64,000 nucleotides of DNA, from the NCBI RefSeq assembly GCF_000682775.1, contig NZ_AWFI01000001.1, positions 744,001 to 808,000 of the forward strand, in the 5' to 3' direction. The position numbers and the translations under genes are program-made. This document shows, in pieces, positions 8,149-17,508 of this stretch. How positions within the stretch are numbered: position 1 is the stretch's first letter; the number at the start of each line of letters is the position of its first letter. The stretch is from Hyphomonas sp. L-53-1-40 (GTDB lineage: Bacteria; Pseudomonadota; Alphaproteobacteria; Caulobacterales; Hyphomonadaceae). The notes under the pieces are model-generated. The model did not search any database and had not been told where the DNA came from. It was given only the letters and a program-made list of their open reading frames with translations.

Positions 8149-10274
8149 TTAGAATGAGACTCTGATTCCCATGCGAATGTTTCGGCCCGGTGCCGGAACC
8201 GCATCCTTGAGAACAGACGTCGAATAACGCACTTCCTCGTCTGTCAGGTTGCGGCCTTCAACGAACAGCTGCGTGCCATCCTTGCCAAAGCCAGCTTCAG
8301 CCAGATCAATTGCAGCGCGCAGGCCTGTCGTGACATAGCCATCGGTAGGCAGAATGCCTGTGCCTGGATCATCCTGATCGGCTGGGAGAGGCCCCAATCA
8401 GCGTCCAGGGCAGCATGGAATGTAACCGGCGGCAGATAAGGCACGTCATTGCCATCATCCAGTTCGCCGTCAACAACATCCAGGCTGGCCGAGGTCACCC
8501 AGCTGGCACCAAGCAGACCTTCCGGGAACCGAGCTTCAGCCTCAATCTCTGCACCTGTAAATTTCGCGCCTTGTTGCTGGAACAGGAAGACGGGAAGTTC
8601 ATCCAGCTCATCAACTTCCAGACCATCTTCTATCGTGACGCCCGGCGTCAGATAGATGAAGCCGTCAAAGTCCGCATGGAACACGTTACCGCTGATGCTG
8701 AAGAGATCATTTTCCCAGCGGAGCGAGGCTTCGATATTCGTGCCTTTCTCCTTGTCGATTGAGGAGTCGCCGATTTGATACTGGCTCGTCGCAAGGTGTG
8801 GACCATCCGCGAACAGTTCACTTTCATTTGGTGCGCGTTCCGTATAGCTGACCTGGCCGCCGATCCACCAGCCCGATGCCACGTGTCTGTGGCCACCAGC
8901 GGATGCGCTGAAAAGATCAAAGCTCCGCTCGCCCTGAATATCATTGTCGAGCTCGGTATTGTCGAAGCGCAACCCGCCTTCCAGAACCGAATGATCGTCT
9001 AACTGCAAGGTCTCAAAGACGAATGCACCGAACGTTTTCGTTGAAGTTGGTGTCAGGAAAGCTTCGTCCCCATCTGCGCTGAAGTCCTTGTCGAGGAATT
9101 GGACACCGGCTGCGCCCTCAATCTCACCAAATTGATGGCCGAGCTCCAGGCGTCCTTCTGTCCCCTCCGTTGTGAACTTCGTTCCAGGTTCGCCTGGGCC
9201 TTCGAATTCGATATGCTCATAGTCAGCATAGGACAGGTTTCCCGAGATATGGGTCAGAGGCCCTGCATCCAGCTTCGCGCCACCACGAATATCGTAACGG
9301 GTTTGTTCCAGATCAATAAACGGGGACTCTGCCTCATGATCTTCCTCATGCTCGTCCTCGTCTTCATGGTCCTCGTCGTCGTGCTCTTCGTCCTCATGCT
9401 CATGATGTTCATGGCCAGGAATGCCATAGCTCGACGTTTGCTGACGGATTGCAAAGCCTAGGAATGCGTCTTCGCCAACCCACGAGATTCCCGCTGAGTA
9501 GGTTTCAGACTGGAGGAAGGAGTTCTCCATCGTGTCACGGACTTCCTCATGCTCCTCGTGCTCTTCGTGTTCCTCTTCGCTCTCTTCTTCATGCTCGGCT
9601 TCTTCAGCTGCGCGTACGGCGGCAGATTCTGCAAAGCCCGGAATATCGTAGTCGCCGAAGTCACGGGCAGAGGCTGATAGTGTCAGCACAAGAGGACCCG
9701 TCGTAAAGCGTGCCTTTCCGCCCGCTTCTGTACCTTCATTCACGCTATTGTTTGCGGCGAAGCCCTCGAAAGACACCGGCTCATCCGGCAGGCTTTCCAC
9801 TATCAGTCCATCGATGACGTTGACAACGCCGCCAATTGCCTGGCCGCCATAGGCTAAGGCTGCCGGACCGCGCAGGATTTCAATCTTCTCAGCGTCGATA
9901 CCATCAGTCGCGACCTGATGGTCCGGCGAGGCGGCAGATGCGTCGAGCGCGCCGATGCCATTCGTCAGAACCAGGACGCGCTCAGCGCCAAGCCCCCGCA
10001 AGACCGGACGGCTTGCGCCTTGTCCGAAAAAGGTCGTGGACACACCGGCTTCACCAGCAAGTGTATCGCCGAGTGTGCCAGAGAGCTTTTCGATGATTTC
10101 TCCGCGATTGATGGCAGTTGCATTACCGACCATTTCGTCGGTGTCACGTTGAGGGCCGACGCCGGTCACAATGACTGTATCAAGTGTCTCGGGTGCGTCC
10201 TGAGCGAAAGCAAGGGGGCTTGCGCCCAGCATAAGCGATGCCGCAACGACGCGGCGGGAGATAGGGGATTTCAT
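8149..10274 (-). pseudogene. ZnuD-like TonB-dependent receptor with His/Glu-rich loops, frameshifted near the C-terminus
   Basis: An outer-membrane receptor, probably for zinc or another divalent metal. It has a signal peptide (AASLMLGASPLAFAQD), a plug starting TVIVTGVG with VLRGLGAERVLVLTNGI, then barrel sequence. Two metal-binding-type loops stand out: residues about 223-246 (Glu/His repeats such as EEHEEHEEHEE) and about 287-316 (HEHHEHEDEEHDDEDHED). This resembles ZnuD. The first frame loses barrel character after DADWGLSQP near 8390. The correct C-terminus (GYVTTGLRAAIDLAE, then LFVEGRNLTDEEVRYST, ending in F) continues in another frame from about 8385 to 8149. One missing base or two extra bases explains it. 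It may be a true pseudogene or a sequence error. The start ATG at 10274 has GGAAC upstream. Confidence 0.85.
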
Positions 10275-10331: not shown

Positions 10332-10634
10332 CTATTGCTGAGAGGAAGGCGGACTTCGCGGCGGTGGAGCGCGGCCAGGCGGCCGAATCCATATTGGCTG
10401 CGAGAATTGCGGCTCTGTGACGGTAGTTCCGATGAGGAGGACGAAAGGACTCGTCGGCACATCGGGCAGCACAGTCTGAACATGTGCGACGGCGGCCAGA
10501 TCACAGGTGACTCCATAGTGATCGTGCGGCTGGTCAGCATGCGCCGCGGCATGCCCCAGCGCGAGCGCCTGAACGAAAACGAACAGGGCTGCGAGGAATG
10601 CCAAATGGTGTGTATGAGACTGCCGGGCGCGCAT
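10332..10634 (-). CDS. Small exported His-rich protein upstream of the metal receptor
   Basis: A 100-residue protein with an N-terminal signal sequence (HHLAFLAALFVFVQALALGHAA) followed by a His-rich stretch (AAHADQPHDHYGVTCDLAAVAH) and a Pro-rich tail (WIRPPGRAPPPRSPP). Such small DUF2946-like exported proteins often precede TonB-dependent metal receptors, and this one lies 57 bases upstream of the ZnuD-like receptor in the same orientation, so the two are probably co-transcribed. A role in periplasmic metal handling is inference from histidines and context. The start at 10634 is chosen because it begins a typical signal peptide; a GTG start at 10682 is possible. Confidence 0.65.
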   Translation of the reverse strand: MRARQSHTHHLAFLAALFVFVQALALGHAAAHADQPHDHYGVTCDLAAVAHVQTVLPDVPTSPFVLLIGTTVTEPQFSQPIWIRPPGRAPPPRSPPSSQQ

Positions 10635-10794
10635 GGTTATTCTGTTACATTTTCGTGAGCTGGGCCGCAAGCGCCAACGCACTTAAAAACATTACGATCC
10701 GCACTTCCTGCTTCAGCTTTCACGCTTCAGTAACCAAGGCAGCCCATCCTCGCGAAAGTTAATGAAAAGCCTTGAGCTGTTAAGAGGATGTAGC

Positions 10795-12381
10795 ATGTCG
10801 AAAAATGCTGTGCGCTGGGGCGCAGATGTTGGTTGCCAGAGCAAAGTCAAGCCGCTGGAAATCCGCAACGACCTTTCCGATCATGGGCTGAAGGGCAAGC
10901 GCGCCCAAGGGTATCTGGGGCTGAATCGCCAGTTCACGAAGGTTACGGCTAAGAAGGACGGCCGCGACGGCCTTCCGGCGTCGGATGCGTCGACCCCTGA
11001 TCAGTGGAGTGAATGCGAGCAGCAGATCGCTGAACGCGCAGAAGATGTGCGCCGCGGTCTCGGGACATGGCTGACCACGACAGCGGCGTCGGTGCGCAAT
11101 TATATCAGCGACTATACGCCGATAGACATTTATCCGGACCAGCTGCGCGAGGCGATCAAGTCCGAAGAGAACGAATACCGTCACTACGAGCTGGACGATG
11201 TGCATGATGCGAAGGAGACTCATTCGGCAGCAATCATCGAGCTTCAACAATTCAAGCTGCGTCATGGAGACCGGATCGGGGATCGCACGCCGGACATCAA
11301 GAAGAACGTCGAACAAGCCGTTGCGATCCTGATCTTCATCATGATCCTCGAGGGCGGTTTCAACGCGCTTCTGTTCAAGGACGCACAGGCCAATGGCCTG
11401 ATGGGCGGCCTGATGATTGCCTTCGGCGTGTCTTCGGTAAATGTTGTGTTTGGCGTGATCGCAGGCTTCTTTGGCCTGCGCTACCTCAACCATCCGGCGC
11501 TTCCGGCGAAGATCATGGGCGGTGCCATAGCGATGGTCTTCGTTCTGGCCGGCATCTTCCTCAATTTCTTTGTCGCGCATTTTCGCGACGCAGTCGAAAC
11601 GGGACTGCTTGCGGCAACAGAGGCAGGTACGCTCGGAACTTTCTCAATGTTCTCCATTGCGCCCGGCGACGTCGTCATGTCGATGTTCCCGAACATCTTT
11701 GGCCTGGAAAGCTTCCTCGCCCTTGGCCTACTCTTCATGGGGCTCGCTGTATTCGGGCTGGCTGTCTATGAGGGCTATGACCGTATTTCTGATCGCTACC
11801 CTGGCTATGGCCGTGTCTGGCGCAAGGAGCGCCGCGCCTATGAGCGTCGCCAGGAAGTCCGTAATGGCGTACGGGATGATCTGTCCGATTATTTCTCTAG
11901 CTGCCGTCTGTGGTTCGAAACTCAGCAATCTCGCCACGTCTCAGCCAAGCGTGAGATCGAAAAGGCCATGAACCTGCTCGAAACCCGCCGCGATTATGCG
12001 TCTGCGATAGCTGCCCGCGCCGCCGATCAGGAGCGCAGCCTGAAAGTCGCCTATCGTCAGGCCCATCGCCGCGCGCGCAACGCCAATCGTGACCGTCTGG
12101 GCGATCAGGCCCCGTGCCCGGAATATTTTAGTGAAATCGTCACACCACAATTGCCGCCATTCGATTATTCCAAGGAGCGGGATCAGGCGAACAAGGCGAT
12201 TGCCGCGATTGACAACAATATCAAAGCGCTGAACCAGACCCGCGAATGGCTAGAACAGCACATCCAGCAGGTCCAGAAAGGCCTGTCCTCAATCGAGAAG
12301 AAAGTTGCTGACGAAATCGGCAAAGTCCGCGAGGCCAAGGGATCTACTCACGTTCCCGTGGACCAGGCTCGCCGGGCCTAG
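10795..12381 (+). CDS. Unrecognised four-helix membrane protein with coiled-coil C-terminus
   Basis: I do not recognise the family. The 528-residue protein has a charged N-terminal domain (1 to about 170) and four membrane helices: about 174-194 (AVAILIFIMILEGGFNALLF), 203-231, 240-262 and 304-326 (SFLALGLLFMGLAVFGLAVY). A long basic, helical C-terminal region follows, with heptad-like character at about 370-420 and 460-515. Helix one carries a buried Glu (ILEGGFNALLF) and helix two has several Gly and Asn, suggesting a channel or signalling membrane core rather than a transporter. The start at 10795 has AAGAGGA upstream; an ATG at 10762 is possible. Only 15 bases separate it from the next gene, so the two form an operon and probably one complex. 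Confidence 0.8.
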   Translation: MSKNAVRWGADVGCQSKVKPLEIRNDLSDHGLKGKRAQGYLGLNRQFTKVTAKKDGRDGLPASDASTPDQWSECEQQIAERAEDVRRGLGTWLTTTAASVRNYISDYTPIDIYPDQLREAIKSEENEYRHYELDDVHDAKETHSAAIIELQQFKLRHGDRIGDRTPDIKKNVEQAVAILIFIMILEGGFNALLFKDAQANGLMGGLMIAFGVSSVNVVFGVIAGFFGLRYLNHPALPAKIMGGAIAMVFVLAGIFLNFFVAHFRDAVETGLLAATEAGTLGTFSMFSIAPGDVVMSMFPNIFGLESFLALGLLFMGLAVFGLAVYEGYDRISDRYPGYGRVWRKERRAYERRQEVRNGVRDDLSDYFSSCRLWFETQQSRHVSAKREIEKAMNLLETRRDYASAIAARAADQERSLKVAYRQAHRRARNANRDRLGDQAPCPEYFSEIVTPQLPPFDYSKERDQANKAIAAIDNNIKALNQTREWLEQHIQQVQKGLSSIEKKVADEIGKVREAKGSTHVPVDQARRA

Positions 12382-12396
12382 AAGGAGACATAAGGG

Positions 12397-13173
12397 ATGC
12401 CACGTCGCAGAAGTGACAAAGGCCCATGGTTCTGGCGTGGAATGATTGCGCTGATGCTGGGTGTCGTATTTGCCTTGTTCGCCGTTGTGGCGTTCAACCA
12501 GCCGCCATCCCTGATGGCCGACTCCAGCTGCCGTATGGACCGCAAGGACCCGGCCCATACGATCATCCTGATTGACCAGTCAGACCCGTTCAATCCGAAT
12601 GATCTGGATTGGGTCTATGAGTTCGTGGACGCTGAAGCCCGCGCCCTGCCCAAATACGGACGTTTAACGGTCATGACGCCGAACGCGGCAAGCCCTTATG
12701 ATCCAAAGCTTGTTTACTACGCGTGTTCGTCGGGGAGCGCTGCAGAGGCCAACCCGATTTTCCAGAACCCGAAAATGATCGAGCAAACCTGGCAGACCCA
12801 GTTCTATGCGCCACTTCTGGAGAATGTTGAAGCAGCACTGACCGACACGCGCCAGCCCAGCTCTCCGCTCGTTGAAGCTGTGTACTCGATCGCCGACCGC
12901 GCTGATTTCCAGGCCGGTGAAACCAATCGCCGGATCGTGCTGGTGTCCGACCTGATGCAGCATTCCGAAGGGTTCAGCTTTTACCGCCTCGGTGCCGATT
13001 ATGAGGCCTATCTGGACTCAGATCTGGCCAAGATGAGTCCGGCTCTGGAAAACGTCGATGTCGTTGCCCGTATCGTGCCACGTCAGATATATGACCTGCC
13101 CATGGCCGACGTTAAGGCGTTCTGGCGTGCCTATTTCAGCGAGGCTGGCGCGGATTATGGCTCGGTGAACTGA
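12397..13173 (+). CDS. Membrane-anchored VWA-like protein, partner of the upstream membrane protein
   Basis: A 258-residue protein with one N-terminal membrane helix (about 12-34, then the periplasm) and a domain that reads like a von Willebrand factor A fold. The first strand TIILIDQSDPF gives Asp60-x-Ser62, there are Ser/Thr residues near 151-156 (TRQPSSPLVEAVYSIA), and RRIVLVSDLMQHS supplies Asp185, so the metal-site positions are partly present. A single cysteine pair (DSSCRMD and YYACSSG) could form a disulfide. It has a strong ribosome-binding site (AAGGAGA) 15 bases after the preceding gene, implying translational coupling. No known system I can name has this pair. The VWA call is from motif pattern only. 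Confidence 0.75.
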   Translation: MPRRRSDKGPWFWRGMIALMLGVVFALFAVVAFNQPPSLMADSSCRMDRKDPAHTIILIDQSDPFNPNDLDWVYEFVDAEARALPKYGRLTVMTPNAASPYDPKLVYYACSSGSAAEANPIFQNPKMIEQTWQTQFYAPLLENVEAALTDTRQPSSPLVEAVYSIADRADFQAGETNRRIVLVSDLMQHSEGFSFYRLGADYEAYLDSDLAKMSPALENVDVVARIVPRQIYDLPMADVKAFWRAYFSEAGADYGSVN

Positions 13174-15194: not shown

Positions 15195-15971
15195 CTAGTC
15201 TTCGAAGACGCCGATGACCGGCACATGGTCTGATGGCTTCTCGAGCTCGCGGGCCTTGCGATAGATCTCTACCGATTGGAGCCTGTCGCAAGCCTGAGGC
15301 GAGCAGAGCAGATGGTCGATCCGGATGCCGTGATCCTTTTTGAAAGCGCCGCCCTGATAATCCCAGAACGTGTACTGGTGTGCACGATTATCGGTCAGTT
15401 CAAAAGAATCCGCCAGACCCAGATATTTCAGTTTTCGGAATTCAGCGCGCGTCTGGGGCAGGGCGAGTGCGTCGTCCTGCCAGACGGTTTCGTCCCAGCA
15501 ATCGGCAGGTGTGGGGATGCAATTATAGTCGCCGCAGAGGACAAAGGCTTCGTCCAACTTCAGCAGCTCACGCGCATGTTGCTCCAGCGCTTCCATCCAT
15601 TCCATCTTGTAGTCATACTTCGGGCCGGGGGCAGGGTTTCCATTCGGCAGGTATAGACCGCCCACACGGATTGGGGTTTCACTGAGGATCAGCGCCTCGA
15701 TATAGCGCGCCTGTTCGTCCTCAATGGTCGGTAGGCCCTTGGTGACGTCCTCGATCTCGTGCTTGGAGAGCAGGGCGACGCCGTTGTAGCTTTTCTGCCC
15801 CAGCACGGCGCAGTTCCAGCCGCGTTCTTCCAGTTCGAGATAGGGAAACGCGTCGGTCTCGCACTTGATTTCCTGAAGGCAGACCACATCGCAATTGATG
15901 GCATCGAGCACTTCCAACACTGTGGGAAGGCGTGCCTTGATCGAGTTGACATTCCATGTGGCGATACGCAT
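15195..15971 (-). CDS. xthA: Exodeoxyribonuclease III
   Basis: An AP endonuclease/3'-5' exonuclease of base excision repair. It has 258 residues, as usual. Landmarks are the start [16 protein letters not shown], the metal-binding Glu in [10 protein letters not shown], the [17 protein letters not shown] segment with the catalytic Asp and Asn, and the C-terminal [10 protein letters not shown] with the catalytic His. It starts at ATG 15971, diverging from tatA, and converges on the GH9 gene only three bases away. No anomalies are seen. Confidence 0.95.
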
Positions 15972-16051
15972 GGCTGCTCTTTAGCAGCTTCGTTCCATTG
16001 TTCCAGCGTGAGCTGCTGTATATATTCAGGGAATTCTTTAAGGAGAGAGGC

Positions 16052-16267
16052 ATGTCGCCAAGCTGGATTCAATTGCTGATCGTCGTGGTCGTTGCCCTCC
16101 TTCTGTTCGGTGGTCGTGGTCGCATCTCCTCCATCATGGGCGATATGGCCAAGGGTATCGGGGCCTTTCGCAAGGGCCTGAAGGATGAGGAAGAGACCAA
16201 ATCCGTCGACAACGACGACATGGTCAATGTTACCCCAAAGAAAGACGAGACGAAGGCCTCGTCATAA
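16052..16267 (+). CDS. tatA: Twin-arginine translocase subunit TatA
   Basis: A pore-forming subunit of the Tat pathway for folded proteins. The 71 residues contain one membrane helix ([17 protein letters not shown]), the hinge and the amphipathic helix with the conserved Phe-Arg-Lys-Gly (GAFRKGLKD), then a charged tail. The start ATG at 16052 follows AAGGAGAGAGG, a strong ribosome-binding site; the longer upstream frame is not needed. It is the first gene of a tatABC operon and lies 24 bases before tatB. Confidence 0.95.
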
Positions 16268-16291
16268 GCTGCCGAGTGGAGGGCGCTTAGC

Positions 16292-16690
16292 ATGCTGCCC
16301 GGAATCGGGTTTTCCGAACTCCTGTTGTTGGGCCTTGCGGCGCTGATCATTGTCGGCCCCAAGGATCTGCCCATGATGATGCGCCGGGTCGGCCAGTTCG
16401 TCGGCAAGGGCCGCGCCATGGCACGTGAATTCCAGGCAGCCTTCGAAGATATTGCCCGCCAGAGCGAACTCGACGAACTCCGCAAGGAGATCGAAGATCT
16501 GAAGAAAGACAACACGATGCAGAAGGCGCAGGACGATTTGGCCGCCTTTGAGGCGGATGTGAATTCTGCGGTCATGGAAAAGAGCCCGCCGCCCAAACCC
16601 GCCGCGCCAGCAGTGGAAACAGTGTCTGAGCCGAATTCCGAGCCAGCAACACCACCGGCCTTGCCGAAAACCGGGGATGATGCTGCGTGA
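16292..16690 (+). CDS. tatB: Twin-arginine translocase subunit TatB
   Basis: Substrate-receptor partner of TatC. The 132 residues start MLPGIGFSELLLLGLAALII with the conserved Glu near position 8, followed by VGPKDLPMMMRRVGQFVGKG, typical of TatB rather than TatA. A long acidic/coiled segment (DELRKEIEDLKKDNTMQKA) and a Pro-rich tail follow. It has a GAGGGCG ribosome-binding site and overlaps tatC by four bases (GTGA), so the genes are translationally coupled. Confidence 0.95.
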   Translation: MLPGIGFSELLLLGLAALIIVGPKDLPMMMRRVGQFVGKGRAMAREFQAAFEDIARQSELDELRKEIEDLKKDNTMQKAQDDLAAFEADVNSAVMEKSPPPKPAAPAVETVSEPNSEPATPPALPKTGDDAA

Positions 16691-17508
16691 CCCACGTGCC
16701 GCCGAAGGACGAACAGCCAGACTTCACCGATGATGAAGTCGAGGCGAGCCGGGCTCCGCTGCTGGAGCATCTGGTCGAGCTGCGCGCGCGCCTGATCAAG
16801 GCTTTGCTGGCGCTGTCGGTCGCCTCGATTGTCTGCTTCTTCTTCGCCGAGCCGATCTATGACTTCCTGCTGGCGCCATTTGCGCGCGTGGCCGAAGGCA
16901 TTCGCGGGGCGCCGCTGGAGTTGATCTTTACTGGCCCGATGGAGTTCTTCTTTGCCAAGCTGAAACTCGCCGTGTTCGCCGGCATTTTCCTGTCCTTCCC
17001 GTTTATCGCCTGGCAGGTCTACCAGTTCGTGGCACCGGGCCTTTACAAGAATGAGCGCGGGGCCTTCTGGCCGTATCTGGTCTTTGCACCCTTGCTGTTC
17101 ACGCTCGGCGCGGCGTTTGTCTATTTCCTGATGCTGCCCATGCTGGCGCGGTTCTCGGTGTCGCAGGAGAATATCGACAGCACGGTCGCAACCATCAAAT
17201 TATTGCCCCGCGTATCGGAGTATCTCTCGCTGGTAATGGCGTTGATGCTGGCCTTTGGCCTGTCGTTCCAGCTGCCGGTGATCCTCAGCCTGCTGGGGCG
17301 GATCGGGATCGTTTCTTCTGACGCGCTCGCCAAGGGTCGGAAATATGCCATTGTCGGCATTCTCTGCTTCGCGGCCTTTTTCACCCCGCCGGATGTGATT
17401 TCGCAGATCCTGCTGACCGTTCCAGTCCTGATGCTCTACGAAATCTCTATCTGGTGCGTGAAACTGATCGAGAAGAAGCAGGCCGAAGAGGATGCTGCGA
17501 GGGAGTAA
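16687..17508 (+). CDS. tatC: Twin-arginine translocase subunit TatC
   Basis: The polytopic core of the Tat translocase, which recognises twin-arginine signals. It has 273 residues with six membrane helices. The family signature LLEHLVELRARLIKALLAL is at the N-terminus, with the conserved Glu, and FTGPMEFFFAKLKLAVFAGI follows with the conserved Pro-Met-Glu and Phe. It starts with GTG inside the end of tatB. About 150 bases without a clear gene separate it from serS. Confidence 0.95.
   Translation: MTHVPPKDEQPDFTDDEVEASRAPLLEHLVELRARLIKALLALSVASIVCFFFAEPIYDFLLAPFARVAEGIRGAPLELIFTGPMEFFFAKLKLAVFAGIFLSFPFIAWQVYQFVAPGLYKNERGAFWPYLVFAPLLFTLGAAFVYFLMLPMLARFSVSQENIDSTVATIKLLPRVSEYLSLVMALMLAFGLSFQLPVILSLLGRIGIVSSDALAKGRKYAIVGILCFAAFFTPPDVISQILLTVPVLMLYEISIWCVKLIEKKQAEEDAARE

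Follow-up and report, generated by a model that had tools for sequence, protein, structure and literature searches.

A linked pair of envelope proteins in Hyphomonas, a four-helix membrane protein and an anchored vWA-fold protein, with relatives joined to ZorAB-type motor genes and nucleases

We argue that two adjacent genes of Hyphomonas, here called A and B, are best read as an inner-membrane receptor and transducer that senses the state of the cell envelope. In four-gene operons of other Alphaproteobacteria (A-B-C-D) the same pair would govern a motor of the ZorAB type together with a nuclease in the periplasm. We hold this reading tentatively and put it somewhat short of an even chance. 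B would stand in the periplasm on its membrane anchor, and a metal coordinated by D60, S62, S156 and D185 would let its vWA domain take hold of a ligand. Most likely this would be an acidic group of a partner linked to peptidoglycan or the outer membrane, or else the outer loop of A. A would relay the bound or unbound state of B through its four-helix core, with Glu186 and Arg264, to its long cytoplasmic helices, and these would act on a putative partner. We infer the contact between A and B, metal binding, sensing, the direction of the signal, control of the motor and a part in defence or in excluding DNA. Least certain of all is what the pair does in Hyphomonas, where it stands alone. For the pair in the window, by which we mean the whole stretch of 64,000 nucleotides from Hyphomonas sp. 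L-53-1-40, we would claim only the receptor and transducer part.

The first-pass annotation had described a two-gene arrangement here. Both open reading frames lie where it placed them, and the short gap and the ribosome-binding site are confirmed (Table 1). There is an alternative in-frame ATG for A at 10762, but the family alignment favours the start given in the table. Measured against the two nearest relatives, whose A is 97% and whose B is 95% identical at the protein level, dN/dS comes to 0.02 (A) and 0.03-0.04 (B). It rises to at most 0.14 (A) and 0.16 (B) against more distant relatives. A is full-length or nearly so in 34 of the 37 Hyphomonas genomes. Since dN/dS is low and A is kept in nearly all genomes of the genus, A and B are not chance open reading frames. 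They are real genes under strong purifying selection, and the pair is near-core in Hyphomonas, not patchy.

Table 1. Coordinates of the gene pair and of its conserved features in the window
Feature	Coordinates	Strand	Basis
Gene A, inner-membrane protein of 528 aa with four TM helices	10795..12381	+	ORF, family alignment, positive-inside
Glu186 codon, TM1 of A	11350..11352	+	invariant in 47/47 aligned relatives; also in gammaproteobacterial A proteins
Arg264 codon, outer end of TM3 of A	11584..11586	+	46/47; also in gammaproteobacterial A
Long coiled-coil-like helices, cytoplasmic C-terminus of A, residues ~339-519	11809..12351	+	AF2 helices 338-430, 459-516
A/B intergenic gap, 15 bases, ribosome-binding site AAGGAG at 12382-12387	12382..12396	+	sequence
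Gene B, 258-aa, N-terminal membrane anchor and predicted periplasmic vWA-fold domain	12397..13173	+	ORF, AF2/Foldseek
N-terminal membrane anchor of B, residues 15-33 (predicted helix 10-33)	12439..12495	+	sequence, AF2
Putative metal-site loop 1 of B, D60-Q-S62	12574..12582	+	D 52/52; S or T 52/52
Putative metal-site loop 2 of B, S156-P-L	12862..12870	+	S/T 52/52
Putative metal-site loop 3 of B, S184-D185, end of strand 178-184	12946..12951	+	D185 52/52

The genes within 6 kb of the pair include, by reading, those for a TonB receptor, a GH9-like protein, xth and tat. A constant third partner in Hyphomonas was considered and rejected, because the flanking genes recur only inside clades. The xth, tat, GH9 and TonB neighbours are thus local synteny. 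One of these runs, tatA-tatB-tatC-like beside the exonuclease III gene (xth) at 15956-17508, keeps its place next to the pair in some Hyphomonas clades only. The TonB-dependent receptor gene (8244-10274, minus strand) encodes His/Asp/Glu-rich loops. Its frame breaks near 8382-8388 and the match to a relative's receptor resumes in another frame, so that the C-terminal barrel is out of frame, through either a mutation or a sequencing error. Between this gene and A there is a 116-aa open reading frame (10332-10682, minus strand) that is divergent from A, pointing away from it, and is kept in the nearest relatives (L021, L022, L025, L026).

Protein A has the anatomy claimed for it earlier. The four hydrophobic helices lie at about residues 177-197, 203-226, 240-262 and 304-325, E186 is in the first, and the C-terminus is long and helical. 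The positive-inside rule predicts a topology with both ends in the cytoplasm, and the cytoplasmic part at each end is long and helical. Conserved Asn and Arg residues are also found in the membrane helices. AF2 predicts the membrane core poorly (pLDDT about 50), and a Foldseek search with this model gave no usable fold match. Sequence and profile searches of Pfam, NCBIfam, PHROGs, PADLOC and the PDB returned only weak coiled-coil-type matches for A and no match of substance for B, which bears out the description of the module as unrecognised. Matches of A or B to EzrA, LmuB, NDC80 and the like were set aside as weak coiled-coil or low-complexity. A was rejected as a homologue of MotA, TolQ or ExbB, given an hhalign probability of 0.3% against six members from the same genome, a small comparison profile. 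The weak match between A and C is coiled coil only.

Protein B gives a better model, with a mean pLDDT of 84.7 (32 close homologues). Its top Foldseek matches are vWA domains at E 8e-6 to 1e-3, with modest TM-scores of 0.36-0.42 by query and at most 0.57 by target. These matches include CMG2, TFIIH subunits, an integrin I domain, BatB (3ibs) and alpha2-delta. The model shows a Rossmann-like fold and places B in the vWA domain superfamily. The first-pass annotation had proposed an anchored VWA-like protein with Asp60-x-Ser62 and Asp185, and those residues now fall on invariant positions of the predicted metal site. Of the classical ligands the fifth, a Ser at position 64 that would be the last of DxSxS, is not conserved among the 52 diverse B proteins aligned, so the MIDAS motif DxSxS...T...D is counted as four of five ligands. 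W243 is invariant in the same set. C45 is kept in 50 of the 52 and C110 in 42, and the two may form a disulfide. The anchor of B has no Asp or Glu, so it is not a proton-binding helix of the MotB/ExbD type.

One can imagine that A conducts ions or is gated, with Glu186 lying along the path, and that B is its vWA regulatory subunit. The alpha2-delta protein plays such a part in calcium channels. Its presence among the fold matches of B, together with the invariant buried Glu and the conserved Asn/Arg in the membrane helices of A, speaks for this idea. However, sequence and fold comparisons gave no similarity to any channel, the helices of A carry few other polar residues, and there is no pore model. 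We consider it improbable. The earlier suggestion was that the pair could be a sensor, channel or effector. Of these, a sensor or transducer would be the best fit.

A is present in 65 of 105 genomes of the family. B was found in 16 of 385 genomes sampled from the class and in 19 of 398 sampled from the phylum. Each of the 46 loci matched by the A profile has A adjoining B. Five gammaproteobacterial loci were missed by the first A profile, and in each a multi-helix relative of A of the same size adjoins B. hhalign identifies this gammaproteobacterial set as an A relative (98.1%, E 1e-13), and both the Glu and the Arg are present in it. A and B are therefore adjacent in every locus where both were examined. 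Whether the two genes co-occur outside this lineage had been raised at the outset. They do, far beyond it, and no characterised family of known function gave a clear match to both.

No phage record contains B, and a phage origin of the pair was rejected on that ground. The genome of the window carries a second, divergent A-B pair (C1:445985-447921, L111:3986-5922), with counterparts in several other genomes of the family. Two contigs labelled Acidobacteria or Sulfopaludibacter (L036, L055) carry A-B genes of the Hyphomonas type, and these assemblies are probably mis-binned or mislabelled. At L117:4961-7509 caspase-like and FGE-sulfatase-like genes, named by reading, are convergent with an A-B pair.

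There are 3 architectures. In the first, which includes the window, A-B stands alone. In the second, a gene for an OmpA-domain Gly-zipper lipoprotein lies directly upstream of A-B. Its hosts are genomes of the phylum outside the class, which we take as Gammaproteobacteria, and one alphaproteobacterium. The third is A-B-C-D, found on plasmids of Rhizobium, Sinorhizobium, Microvirga and Paracoccus and in other alphaproteobacterial genomes. The first-pass annotation was right about the pair itself, but it did not have the four-gene operon or the upstream lipoprotein gene. The lipoproteins share their Gly-zipper/OmpA domain with the YiaD-like family (NF053611). They differ from it in an extra C-terminal stretch of about 250 aa and in forming a three-gene unit with A and B. 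On a tree of B with 53 rows, the 22 A-B-C-D rows fall on one side of a branch with support 96 and the 9 lipoprotein rows on another with support 99, and the architecture changes only twice. Some branches are long, so the deep placements are unsure. One locus (L120:3643-8296) has a divergent A-B, then an unknown gene, then C-like and D-like genes, and is possibly an older or diverged form of A-B-C-D.

C and D are related to ZorA and ZorB, the proteins of the Zorya motor. D carries an OmpA domain and one transmembrane helix, in which the Glu at position 30 is invariant (19/19). It matches PADLOC ZorB2 at E 6e-25, and against an alignment of ZorB2 from true Zorya II loci it scores 98.6% with hhalign (E 1e-15). 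C has about three transmembrane helices and a coiled-coil tail, and its match to ZorA2 covers the pore helices (hhalign 96.2%, E 2.6e-9). This supersedes a comparison of C with six MotA/ExbB proteins of the same genome, which was in register and weak. Both matches together make C and D a ZorAB-type 5:2 motor pair by homology, with putative ion flow.

A nuclease accompanies 14 of the 22 A-B-C-D loci, scored as SNase (PF00565) in 13 and as GmrSD-type HNH (PF07510) in one. Five loci have it as a C-terminal fusion to D (SNase in L113, L154, L203 and L204, HNH in L153). In nine others an SNase gene lies close by (L057, L058, L060, L061, L063, L114, L152, L155, L156); in L061 and L152 one gene intervenes and the SNase runs on the opposite strand. 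No SNase or HNH nuclease was found at loci of the other architectures, and the stand-alone pairs have no known effector. An early count gave 12/20 A-B-C-D loci with a nuclease against 0/23 other loci (Fisher p 8e-6). The loci in this count lack independence: L058 and L063 are almost copies of each other, and five changes of the nuclease label are required on the B tree. Genomes carry 1-5 SNase genes each, a background against which adjacency would seldom arise by chance, and in G773 the fusion to D is the only copy. The nuclease would lie outside the cytoplasm, since D carries an OmpA domain and the free SNases have, by reading, signal-like N-termini.

The comparison with Zorya is worth drawing out. 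The anti-phage Zorya systems, types I-III, have a ZorA-ZorB motor with the effectors ZorC/D, ZorE or ZorF/G (PMC11890865, PMC8565338). ZorAB requires peptidoglycan binding, ion flow and its tail, and it recruits a nuclease (PMC11890865). These requirements and the nuclease recruitment make the parallel with A-B-C-D reasonable. C resembles ZorA in its pore helices, D has the anatomy of ZorB in its transmembrane helix and OmpA peptidoglycan-binding domain, and a nuclease is added in both systems. The differences are that A and B are extra, and that the nuclease of A-B-C-D would be secreted or fused to the periplasmic end of D. ZorC/D, ZorE and ZorF/G are not annotated beside C/D in the plasmid loci (by annotation only), and a ZorE-like gene was seen, by reading, only in true Zorya II loci. 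The window pair differs further in having no motor at all. Searching the whole window genome with the C and D profiles at E<=1, without a positive control, gave no C/D-like gene, and none stands beside the pair. Without C and D the window pair is not a Zorya system. It also has no adjoining SNase or GmrSD-type HNH nuclease, so the roles of motor and nuclease cannot be transferred to it.

In A-B-C-D the same receptor would work with the ion-driven ZorA/ZorB-like motor, anchored to peptidoglycan by the OmpA domain of D. The output would be a nuclease on the periplasmic side, which would accord with destruction of DNA on its way in through the envelope. That a motor and a periplasmic nuclease are joined to the pair suggests gating of DNA destruction at the envelope. 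A bolder version, somewhat unlikely in our judgement, is that A-B-C-D with SNase or HNH is an undescribed form of ZorAB-driven immunity in the periplasm. The metal-dependent vWA receptor and its transducer would gate a peptidoglycan-anchored rotary motor that deploys the nuclease on incoming DNA, and the Hyphomonas pair would be the motor-less form of the receptor.

One could go further and take the pair itself, stand-alone forms included, as an anti-phage or anti-plasmid system, with A-B-C-D as its motor-driven, nuclease-armed version. The kinship of C/D with ZorA/ZorB and the nuclease linkage favour this. So does the patchy spread of A-B-C-D, several of whose loci are plasmid-borne and have HipA or Phd genes, recombinases or phage genes nearby. 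One A-B pair also lies in an operon-like run with HerA/TraG-like ATPase, AAA and radical-SAM proteins. However, the type in the window is near-core in its genus (34/37) and not patchy, the architecture is almost constant on the B tree, the stand-alone pairs have no adjoining nuclease or known effector, and B is in no phage record. We think this quite doubtful. The run just mentioned (L127:988-9694, Hyphomonas) reads HerA/TraG-like ATPase, A, B, a 389-aa protein, AAA (ClpB-like) and radical-SAM-like on the same strand, and it is possible that it is a separate defence or mobile system.

The recurrence of OmpA-domain partners, D in one architecture and the upstream lipoproteins in another, suggests that peptidoglycan or the outer membrane is sensed or held. 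A-B could also be a static or force-bearing Tol/Ton-like tether between the inner membrane and either peptidoglycan or the outer membrane, without sensing, and the motor of A-B-C-D would pull or turn it. OmpA-domain partners occur in two lineages, as a tether would have it, and near-core conservation in Hyphomonas suits a housekeeping role. There is also a published class of vWA proteins tethered to the inner membrane, encoded beside tolQ-like motor genes and proposed to transmit force, in which the transmembrane helix has an SHLS/His motif or an aspartate (PMC12204202). B resembles this class as a periplasmic vWA protein anchored by a single helix, and in A-B-C-D it is found beside a 5:2-type motor pair. 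However, its helix, RGMIALMLGVVFALFAVVAF, has neither the SHLS/His motif nor the membrane aspartate of the published families (PMC12204202). Its partner A is another kind of four-helix protein, not TolQ/MotA-like, and the acidic transmembrane residue (Glu30) is supplied by the separate ZorB-like D. Judged by these sequence features, the pair does not belong to that class of force transducers. A-B has no motor in most lineages, and the long cytoplasmic helices of A would be superfluous for a tether. We regard a tether as unlikely and prefer the receptor and transducer.

The membrane vWA proteins BatA/BatB and others linked to MoxR deserve the same comparison. B is likewise anchored and has the metal-site residues, and BatB is among its fold matches. 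The window pair differs in that no MoxR AAA+ ATPase gene adjoins it (neighbours within 6 kb, by reading), its membrane partner is another protein, and no sequence similarity was detected. The pair may work like Zorya, the tolQ-linked vWA proteins or the TolQ/MotA systems without belonging to any of them. Our literature search, which mostly did not reach subscription papers, found no paper on the pair or on a Zorya variant with vWA or SNase.

A and B represent families absent from the curated libraries searched, and they form an obligate pair with an almost intact predicted metal site and one invariant buried Glu. Through them an envelope module that is widespread but uncharacterised is tied to Zorya-like motors driven by ions. 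Where such a machine would act is hinted at by those nucleases that are fused, at its periplasmic end, to the motor subunit that binds peptidoglycan. It can now be tested whether ZorAB-type motors can drive the destruction of DNA outside the cytoplasm, and what stand-alone pairs of a vWA protein and a membrane protein sense.
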